Assembly: GCF_003002095.1 (NCBI RefSeq)
Contig: NZ_PVZC01000001.1
Span: forward strand, 558,001 to 622,000
Direction: 5' to 3'
DNA from: Allonocardiopsis opalescens
Lineage (GTDB): Bacteria > Actinomycetota > Actinomycetes > Streptosporangiales > Streptosporangiaceae
DNA: 64,000 bases
Shown: in pieces, positions 25,706-32,394 of the stretch
Layout of the letters: every line of letters starts with the position of its first letter
Position numbering within the stretch: position 1 is the first letter of the stretch
Notes under the pieces: generated by a model
Seen by the model: only the letters and a program-made list of their open reading frames with translations
What the model was told of the DNA's origin: nothing
Databases searched by the model: none
Translations under genes and position numbers: made by a program

Positions 25706-29311
<3,606 letters not shown>

Positions 29312-29364
29312 CGCGCGCTACCCTGGCAGTCGCATACCGCACGTTCGTGGAAGGAACCGACCGC

Positions 29365-30159
29365 GTGTTGCCGCACTCCTCCTCCCCGGCGTCCCGTCCG
29401 CGGCGCCCGCGCGCCCGGACCCTGCTCGCCGGACTGGCCCTGGCCGCCGCCGGCCTCGCGCTGAGCGCGTGCGGGCCCCAGCAGGCGGGCGCGGCCGCCA
29501 TCGTGGGCGGCGAGCGGATCAGCACCGAGTCCGTCCGCGCCGACCTCGACGAGATCGCGGTGCTGGCCGAGGAGTCGGGCCAGCAGCTCACCGACGAGCA
29601 GCGCGGCCAGCTCTCCGGCGAGGTGCTGCGCCAGCGCATTCTGTACGTGATCGGCGACACCACCGCTGAGCAGGCCGGGCTGGAGTTCAGCCAGGGCGAG
29701 CTGGACGCCCAGCTGGAGTCCATGGGCGGCGCCGAGCAGCTGGCCGCCCAGGGCGTGCTGCCCGCGCACCAGGACTCCGTGGTCCGCTTCGAGCTGCTGG
29801 TGCAGCGGCTCGGCGAGCAGGCGTCGGAGCAGGAGCTGGCCGCCGTGGTCGAGCAGCTGCGGCCGCAGGCCGAGGCGCAGCTGCTGCCGCAGCTCCAGCA
29901 GATGTACGGCGACCAGCAGGAGCTGATCGACGCCGAGATCAATCGCCAGCTGGAGGGCCAGGCCCGCCAGCAGGTCGCGCTGCAGGCGGTGCAGACCGCC
30001 GCCCAGGAGATCTCGGTCGACGTCAACCCCCGCTACGGCACCTTCGACCCCGCCACCCTGAGCATCAACCCGGAGTGGAACGCCGTCTCCGCGCCCGAGG
30101 AGTCCGGGCAGCCGACGGTGCCCGGCATGGGCGGTGTGATCCCTCCCGATGGCGGCTGA
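29365..30159 (+). CDS. SurA N-terminal domain lipoprotein
   Basis: A 264-residue predicted lipoprotein: an Arg/Pro-rich start, a hydrophobic stretch and the lipobox LALSACG. The mature part matches the helical SurA N-terminal chaperone domain (AIVGGERISTESVRADLDE) and is very rich in Gln and Glu. No PPIC rotamase domain follows, so it may be a chaperone without isomerase activity. GTG 29365 has GAAGGA nine bases upstream. It sits between mfd and mazG, which overlaps its 3' end by 11 bases. Confidence 0.82.
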   Translation: MLPHSSSPASRPRRPRARTLLAGLALAAAGLALSACGPQQAGAAAIVGGERISTESVRADLDEIAVLAEESGQQLTDEQRGQLSGEVLRQRILYVIGDTTAEQAGLEFSQGELDAQLESMGGAEQLAAQGVLPAHQDSVVRFELLVQRLGEQASEQELAAVVEQLRPQAEAQLLPQLQQMYGDQQELIDAEINRQLEGQARQQVALQAVQTAAQEISVDVNPRYGTFDPATLSINPEWNAVSAPEESGQPTVPGMGGVIPPDGG

Positions 30160-30917: not shown

Positions 30918-32135
30918 TCAGCCGACCGCGCGTCCGGTGGGCGCGTAGTCGGGCAGCTCGATCGCGGTGGAGGCCCGGTCCAGCGCCGAGGCCAGGCCGT
31001 TGAGCCGGGGCAGGTGCGGGAGCAGGCGGATGGTGCGGTCGCGCAGCCACAGCGCGGCGCGGGTGCGCGGCGCCAGCGTCCCGGCCCCCGACAGCGCCAC
31101 CTTCTGGTTCCGGGCGACGAACCCGGCCATCCGCTCCTGGTAGCGGGCGAAGGCGGCGGCGTGGTCGCCGCCGGCGGCGGCCAGCTCGCCAGCGAGCACG
31201 TACGCGCCGACCAGGGCCAGGCTGGTGCCCTGGCCCGACAGCGGCGAGGCGCAGTAGCCGGCGTCGCCGACCAGCGCGATCCGCCCCCGCGACCAGCGGT
31301 CCAACCGGATCTGGCTGATGGAGTCGAAGTAGAAGTCGGGTGCGTGCTCCATCTCGGCCAGCAGCTCCGGCGCCCGCCAGCCGACCCCGGCGAAGGCGTC
31401 GGCCAGCGCCCGGCGCTGCACCGCCGGGTCCCGGTCGCCGGGCAGCTCGGGCGAGGCGAAGCCGAAGACCGCGTGGGTGGGCGCGCCGCTCGCGGCGCGG
31501 GCCGTGCCCACCAGCCGGCCCGGCTCGTTGTGCAGCAGCGTCCAGTGCTCGCGGCCCAGGCGGTCGGGGACGGTGCAGATCGAGATGTAGTAGCCCAGGT
31601 GGTGCCGGTACCGCGTCTCCGGGCCGAAGGCGAGCGCGCGGACGCGCGAGTGCATGCCGTCGGCGCCCACCACCAGGCCGAAGCGGCGGGTGCCGCCGCG
31701 TTCGAAGGCGACCTCCACGCCGTCTGCGCCCTCGGTGAGGGCGGCGACGGAGTCGCCGAACAGGTACTCGGTCCCGTCGGCGGTGGCCCGGTGCAGGATC
31801 TCCAGCAGGTCGCCGCGCGGGATCTCGACATCGCGGTCGCGGCCCGCCCCGGCGAAGACGTCGGCGGACAGTTCCACCTTCGTGGCTCCCGCGGCGTCCA
31901 CATAGGCGATGCCGCGCATCCGGGTGCGGGCGGCGCGCACGGTGTCGAGCAGGCCCATCCGCTCGGCCACGTCGACGGCGGCCCCGCGCAGGTCGATGCC
32001 GTAGCCGCCGGTGCGCAGCCGGGGAGCGTGCTCGACCACGGTGGGCCGGAAGCCGAAGCGTCGCAGCCAGTAGGCCAGGGCGAGTCCGGCGACGCCCGCG
32101 CCGGAGACGAGTACGCCAGTGTCGGTCTGGTTCAT
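30918..32135 (-). CDS. FAD-dependent monooxygenase (TetX/PHBH type)
   Basis: A 405-residue flavoprotein monooxygenase. It has the dinucleotide motif [15 protein letters not shown], the DG motif [12 protein letters not shown] and the GD motif [18 protein letters not shown]. Such enzymes hydroxylate aromatic compounds and some inactivate antibiotics, but the substrate cannot be read from sequence. ATG 32135 is preceded by GGGGGA. It is divergent from a TetR gene whose putative operators cover its promoter, and it interrupts the mazG-eno order usual in the group, suggesting acquisition. Confidence 0.88.
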
Positions 32136-32198
32136 GTCGGTCCCCCGTGGTGCGGCCGCCGTAGCCCCGCCGTCCGCGCGGTGCGGGCGACGGAAGCG

Positions 32199-32228
32199 AG
32201 CCTACGGAGCCGACTTACCGGCCGTCAA
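32199..32228 (-). promoter_or_regulatory. Promoter of the monooxygenase gene
   Basis: On the - strand TTGACG (32228-32223) and TAGGCT (32204-32199) are 18 bases apart, a good housekeeping-type promoter. The -35 box lies within the first 19-bp tandem repeat, so binding of the divergent TetR protein there would block it. Confidence 0.65.
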
Positions 32229-32289
32229 GCAACTTACCGGGCGTCAAGTTGCTTACCGGTCGGCCAGTTTTCTACCGGGCGGCAGGTTT
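32214..32289. repeat. Four 19-bp tandem repeats, probable TetR operators
   Basis: Units start at 32214, 32233, 32252 and 32271, each 19 bp with no spacer. The shared pattern is CTTACCGG-CG-CAAGTT with drift in the third and fourth units. Adjacent units bring AACTT and AAGTT together, giving dyad character. They lie between the monooxygenase and the TetR gene, cover the -35 of the former and precede the likely -10 (TACACT, 32300-32305) of the latter. Confidence 0.7.
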
Positions 32290-32394
32290 GGCCTCGGGAT
32301 ACACTCGACTCGGCGGACCGGCCGGACGCGGCCGGTCATCCGCCGCAGGAGCAGTGGGAGGCCGGGAGACCCCGGGATCACGGAGAGGCCGGGC

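Follow-up and report, generated by a model that had tools for sequence, protein, structure and literature searches.

Organization of the locus

The sequence analysed here, referred to as the window, is a 64,000-nt stretch of Allonocardiopsis opalescens (contig NZ_PVZC01000001.1 of assembly GCF_003002095.1, positions 558,001-622,000), in which a gene for a TetR-family regulator and a gene for an FAD-dependent monooxygenase diverge from a 259-bp intergenic region that holds four tandem copies of a 19-bp unit. The features of the region are given below in window coordinates, together with the rank of each unit among all 18-mers of the window (strict motif) and its unit-model score, both models being described in the next section.

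30918..32135, minus strand: FAD-dependent monooxygenase gene, divergent from the regulator gene, 405 aa (Pfam FAD_binding_3 PF01494, 77.4 bits, cut-off 22)
32199..32204, minus strand: probable -10 box of the monooxygenase gene, TAGGCT, 8 bp outside the array
32213..32230: putative operator unit 1, ACTTACCGGCCGTCAAGC; rank 2, unit-model score 24.8, which no shuffled position equals
32223..32228, minus strand: probable -35 box of the monooxygenase gene, TTGACG, inside unit 1 and 18 bp from the -10 box
32232..32249: putative operator unit 2, ACTTACCGGGCGTCAAGT; rank 1, unit-model score 29.5
32251..32268: putative operator unit 3, GCTTACCGGTCGGCCAGT; rank 3, unit-model score 21.5
32270..32287: putative operator unit 4, the weakest, TTCTACCGGGCGGCAGGT; rank 6, strict-motif score -2.9, unit-model score 10.6 (shuffled fraction 5e-6)
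32300..32305, plus strand: probable -10 box of the TetR gene, TACACT, 12 bp past the array
32311-32342: hairpin rich in G+C, located in the tetR leader downstream of the -10 box and upstream of the start codon
32395..32946, plus strand: TetR-family regulator gene, GTG start, 183 aa, recognition helix TKAALYYHF

The four consecutive units fill positions 32213-32288 without any intervening indels. A preliminary description of this DNA, whose implied gene positions and orientations are correct, had read the repeats as starting at 32214, 32233, 32252 and 32271; units cut there open with CTTACCGG, the last one with TCTACCGG. The natural unit begins one base earlier, at 32213, and consists of an 18-bp imperfect palindrome (ACTTACCGNNCGKCAAGT) followed by a 1-bp spacer. 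Tandem Repeats Finder reports 32214-32288 with period 19, 3.9 copies, 76% matches and 0% indels. The copies are not identical, 10 of the 19 columns being invariant and copy 4 being the most diverged. Comparing each base of the array with the one 19 positions further on gives 44 identities in 57 comparisons, a value reached by none of 5000 shuffles that preserved the dinucleotides of the 259-bp intergenic region (maximum 33) and, with the period free to vary between 12 and 30, by none of 1000 (maximum 34); over the whole window, at lags 12-30, the array is the sole place that attains it. The exact phase, the absence of indels and the shuffle test thus bear out the description of the array as four 19-bp repeats without spacers. 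The top Tandem Repeats Finder score in the window (129) belongs to two 57-bp direct repeats at 29691-29800, inside an ORF at 29233-30159.

The regulator scores 66.6 bits against Pfam TetR_N PF00440 (cut-off 24), which places it in the family by its domain, and its predicted structure (pLDDT 93.4) has the all-helical TetR fold. The entries nearest to this model by Foldseek are 7eqe and 7eqf, 33-34% identical to it, which in VIA-align are tied with 2eh3 (Z 17.0 for 2eh3, 16.7 for 7eqf_A with an rmsd of 3.3 over 178 residues, and 16.6 for 7eqe); no paper for 7EQE or 7EQF was found in the open-licence literature. In sequence, the solved structures closest to the monooxygenase are those of tetracycline destructases, with Tet(55) at the top (290.7 bits). 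Its identification as a tetracycline destructase was rejected, since it reaches 310.6 bits with NCBIfam NF033476 against a curated cut-off of 550. A structured RNA in the tetR leader was considered and rejected, the leader that holds the hairpin having a folding z-score of only -1.67.

Probable operator motif and placement between promoter-like boxes

Two models of the repeated palindrome were used. The strict motif, whose core is ACTTACCGNNCGGTAAGT, is symmetric and was trained on 125 loci with a divergent monooxygenase, including the paralogous pair of the same genome (L117); its seed was set after the window and its relatives had been inspected, and the array of the window was absent from the training. 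With it, the three best 18-mers of the window are units 2, 1 and 3 (24.9, 22.3 and 15.8, respectively). The unit model, trained on the 33 other arrays found in related loci, places all four units of the window above the 99.9% threshold of shuffled sequence, the flanking 18-mers in register with the array staying below it. Given its poor score with the strict motif, unit 4 may be weak or unbound.

A strict σ70 scan returned no promoter, and the promoter boxes listed above therefore rest on the comparison among related loci. In all 34 arrays (the window's included) TTGNC is present in the first unit, read on the monooxygenase strand. On that side, 32 of the 34 loci have a TANNNT box, a form of the -10 box selected after the loci had been inspected, at a distance of 7 bp (14 loci) or 8 bp (18 loci) from the array; L016 and L025 have none, and no locus has one that starts at any other offset between 0 and 33. 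Shuffled flanks have TANNNT at 7 or 8 bp in at most three loci. On the tetR side, the same form is found 3-12 bp past the array in every locus except L213 (33/34), at exactly 6 bp in 21 of them, shuffled flanks having it within that range in at most five. It follows from these positions that arrays of two, three or four copies all fill the space between two promoter-like boxes. The probable boxes and this comparison thus agree with the earlier proposal that the repeats cover the monooxygenase -35 and precede the TetR -10.

Copy number in related loci

Homologues of the TetR protein (E <= 1e-20) are present in 180 of the 341 genomes of its family. From these, 130 TetR loci were taken, namely 30 first matches, window included, and 100 more, one of which is the paralogous pair of the same genome; they are the best-scoring of the listed places, down to 1.0e-32. 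L037-L039 were excluded from the counts; two of them, the Nocardiopsis loci L037 and L039, have matches to the mfd, mazG, eno and ftsB-like genes of the window within the same 10.5 kb, as in the window itself. A divergent monooxygenase homologue (E <= 1e-6) accompanies the regulator in 126 of the 130 loci, the window's among them.

Arrays with the 19-bp step occur in 34 of the loci: 22 have two copies, 11 have three and the window alone has four. The 33 comparison arrays were picked by eye (L025 being an addition by eye), each was left out of the training of the model that scored it, and one of them, L213, has two copies by the model and three by eye. The last copy is the weakest in 19 of the 22 two-copy and in 6 of the 11 three-copy arrays. 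Five changes on the TetR tree are needed to account for the three-copy label, three of them forced by starred branches, with labels assigned by eye (12 three-copy rows including L213, and L025 under "other"). Furthermore, a 27-bp pattern spanning 1.5 units, with one mismatch allowed, is found in 7 of the 394 genomes of the class, the window's included, its reversed control matching in none. The claim that four sites are unusual for a TetR target holds in the sense that they exceed all 33 related arrays; as a general statement it is weakened by the multi-site TetR operators of SCO7222, ActR and EthR.

Four members of the clade have no monooxygenase beside tetR (L181, L195, L202 and L211). By the strict motif, two units survive in L202 (17.8 and 14.2) and one (8.3) in L181, which by eye retains a remnant of the start of the monooxygenase gene, and neither L211 nor L195 has any unit scoring above 0. 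Such erosion in the absence of the monooxygenase would be expected if the units serve the gene pair, the cases being few (four) and L202 an exception.

Recognition helix and putative operator type

Among the 126 loci, 36 regulators have a TKA recognition helix and 85 a TKP helix, L167, L168, L196, L203 and L149 (TQA) standing outside these counts. The two classes differ at position 5 of the best palindrome of each locus, where 35 of the 36 TKA loci have G in at least one half-site and all 85 TKP loci have A in both halves. On the TetR tree, one side of a single branch with support 99 holds 86 rows, which equals the number of TKP rows plus L149; the match between helix and operator rests largely on this one split, and the covariation therefore amounts to few independent events. 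The spacing of sites also differs: neighbouring strict sites in the TKA loci other than the window follow the 19-bp step in 25 of 30 pairs (two TKA loci, L023 and L028, have no 19-bp array), and among the 99 pairs of the TKP loci, steps of 45 bp (27 pairs) and 23 bp (21 pairs) are the most frequent, with a single instance of 19 bp. None of the 129 pairs of both classes has a step of 20, 21 or 22 bp. The two short steps are 21 bp minus or plus two bases, and neighbouring dimers would be turned by them equally and in opposite directions. In L149, the single relative with a TQA helix, each half of the best site carries a T at position 8, and this might represent a third specificity.

Taken with the motif ranks and the 33 related arrays, this comparison makes it very probable that the neighbouring TetR protein uses the repeats as its operators, as had been proposed.

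Comparison with known systems

The closest experimental counterpart is SCO3367 of Streptomyces coelicolor, which, as described in excerpts of PMC3511530, represses its divergent MFS gene and has the putative operators ACTTGACGCCCGGCTAGT and ACTTGCCGGGCGGCAAGT within DNase footprints. The second of these has the same sequence as operators in L008 and L011, relatives of the window locus, and it reaches 20.9 bits with the motif obtained here; units 1-3 of the window match it as the same palindrome or close variants in a divergent intergenic region. Among 199 genomes of a genus taken to be Streptomyces, 15 contain ACTTGCCGGGCGGCAAGT, in every case next to a TetR homologue, and the helix TKAALYYHF is present in the three homologues examined. 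In 13 of the 15 loci these homologues (the S. coelicolor protein itself not among them) are 33-38% identical to the regulator over long alignments, and the other two are 58-60% identical over just 64-68 residues. In the eight of these loci read for spacing, a second site stands at a distance of 44-47 bp, being the first operator in seven loci and a variant of it in L245. These eight loci thus have two sites 44-47 bp apart, and SCO3367 itself, going by the excerpts of PMC3511530, has an MFS partner, whereas the window has a 19-bp array and a monooxygenase partner.

Several other TetR systems resemble the window in part. In the excerpts of PMC3511530, the footprints described for SCO7222 and ActR contain three operator repeats; the pair SCO7222/SCO7223, like that of the window, consists of a TetR gene divergent from a monooxygenase gene, with three palindromic repeats inside the footprint, and differs in its operator, which is TGGAACGNCGTTCCA. 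MabTetRx/MabTetX of Mycobacterium abscessus, compared by its description in excerpts of PMC6143652, likewise pairs a TetR repressor with an FAD monooxygenase, the repressor being released by the substrates of the enzyme, but forms one operon with a 35-bp operator, an arrangement that the divergent genes of the window do not share. For tandem or four-site TetR operators, the open-licence literature searched yielded a paper about Rv3574 and others that, by their titles, deal with different subjects.

EthA is a flavin enzyme. EthR, going by the title of a paper, reportedly octamerizes cooperatively on its operator. The regulator of the window does not qualify as an EthR-like orthologue, EthR lying outside the best 60 of 139 sequence matches; the EthR chains align to the TetR model with 15-16% identity and Z 14.0-14.7. 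The Mycobacterium tuberculosis pair, as excerpts of PMC3511530 present it, is like that of the window in having a TetR-family repressor of a monooxygenase gene and a short intergenic region (75 bp), and the EthR motif is described in excerpts of PMC4482099 as larger and complex, with no classical palindrome. Multi-site TetR operators are already known (EthR, SCO7222); what the present array contributes is a natural series of two, three and four copies.

Proposed mechanism and alternatives

It is highly likely that the array serves as operator region for a local TetR switch under autoregulation, which would work as follows. A single dimer of the neighbouring regulator would sit on each 18-bp palindrome; the outer copies would overlap the -35 regions of both divergent promoters, so that bound dimers would exclude the RNA polymerase from both the monooxygenase gene and tetR, and the inner copies would hold extra dimers between the outer ones. 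We infer that this repression ends when the repressor is released by a small ligand, which is probably either a monooxygenase substrate or a compound related to one. The four copies, against two or three in the relatives, would possibly give a tighter repression or a steeper response to the ligand.

How neighbouring dimers would be arranged depends on the step. The idea that they stack on one face of the DNA did not survive the calculation, since 19 bp correspond to 1.81 turns and successive dimers would be rotated by about -69 degrees (10.5 bp per turn; -62 with 10.4), so that four would spread over more than half of the helix circumference; for the 23-bp step seen in part of the TKP loci the rotation is +69 degrees, and neither step aligns the dimers. 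Contact between neighbouring dimers at the 19-bp step is possible. A more elaborate proposal, in which the dimers would form a cooperative spiral filament, with contact only at the 19-bp step, ends pinned to both promoters and a steepness that lineages would tune in evolution by adding whole units, is tentative and rather unlikely.

Does the number of copies matter at all? The units might be real operators whose number is neutral, tandem duplication adding and removing copies and the two promoter-proximal units alone being of consequence. This is a plausible reading, if somewhat short of a probable one: the repeated changes of copy number on the TetR tree and the degenerate unit 4 are what it would predict, but the inner copies have kept the 19-bp step, only 3 of the 11 three-copy arrays have their weakest unit in the middle, and two of the four loci with no monooxygenase beside tetR have no unit above 0 by the strict motif, from which it follows that units decay when they are not needed. 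Neutrality of this kind would leave the operators themselves in place, and the two remaining alternatives concern whether the units are operators, and in which register. Tandem palindromes with a 19-bp step create a second set of dyads between the units (an inverted repeat), and dimers could bind there, on GTCAAG-N-ACTTAC centred at the 1-bp joints, or as two overlapping dimers, as with QacR. Such a register is very improbable, given that the 85 TKP loci have the outer-register palindromes at other spacings (the 19-bp step once) and the SCO3367-type palindromes stand 44-47 bp apart; the joint dyad is missing there. That the array is a mechanical tandem repeat with no regulatory role is scarcely credible. 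Short tandem repeats are indeed common in GC-rich DNA, with 137 rows in this window, but the motif, the step and the placement relative to the promoters are common to 33 other loci, and the 27-bp pattern recurs in the class where its reversed control does not.

The relation of operator number and spacing to the sharpness of repression has mostly been studied with synthetic promoters. Under the proposed TetR switch, the loci with two, three and four units, which share the step, the motif, the gene pair and the anchoring to both promoters, would constitute a natural test of what extra operator sites do, complemented by the sister loci with other spacings. In addition, the TKA and TKP helices provide a predicted operator code for the TetR-monooxygenase pair in many genomes of the family of A. 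opalescens.

Other sites in the same genome

A regulon was considered and is not claimed, because, with up to three mismatches allowed, the genome matches the reversed control more often than the operator pattern itself (237/222 vs 108/108). The same genome has a second TetR-monooxygenase pair (G000:C5:132757-136490, L117), whose regulator is about 50% identical to that of the window and has a TKP helix, the operator being of the other type, ACTTAACGGAAGGTAAGT. The sole one-mismatch site outside the window (G000:C5:134900) lies in the intergenic region of this paralogous pair, and cross-binding between the two systems is possible. Operator-like places with two mismatches number five elsewhere in the genome (C3, C7 twice, C9 and C12); the two on C7 (G000:C7:63636 and C7:65319) are identical 18-mers that lie 1.7 kb apart.
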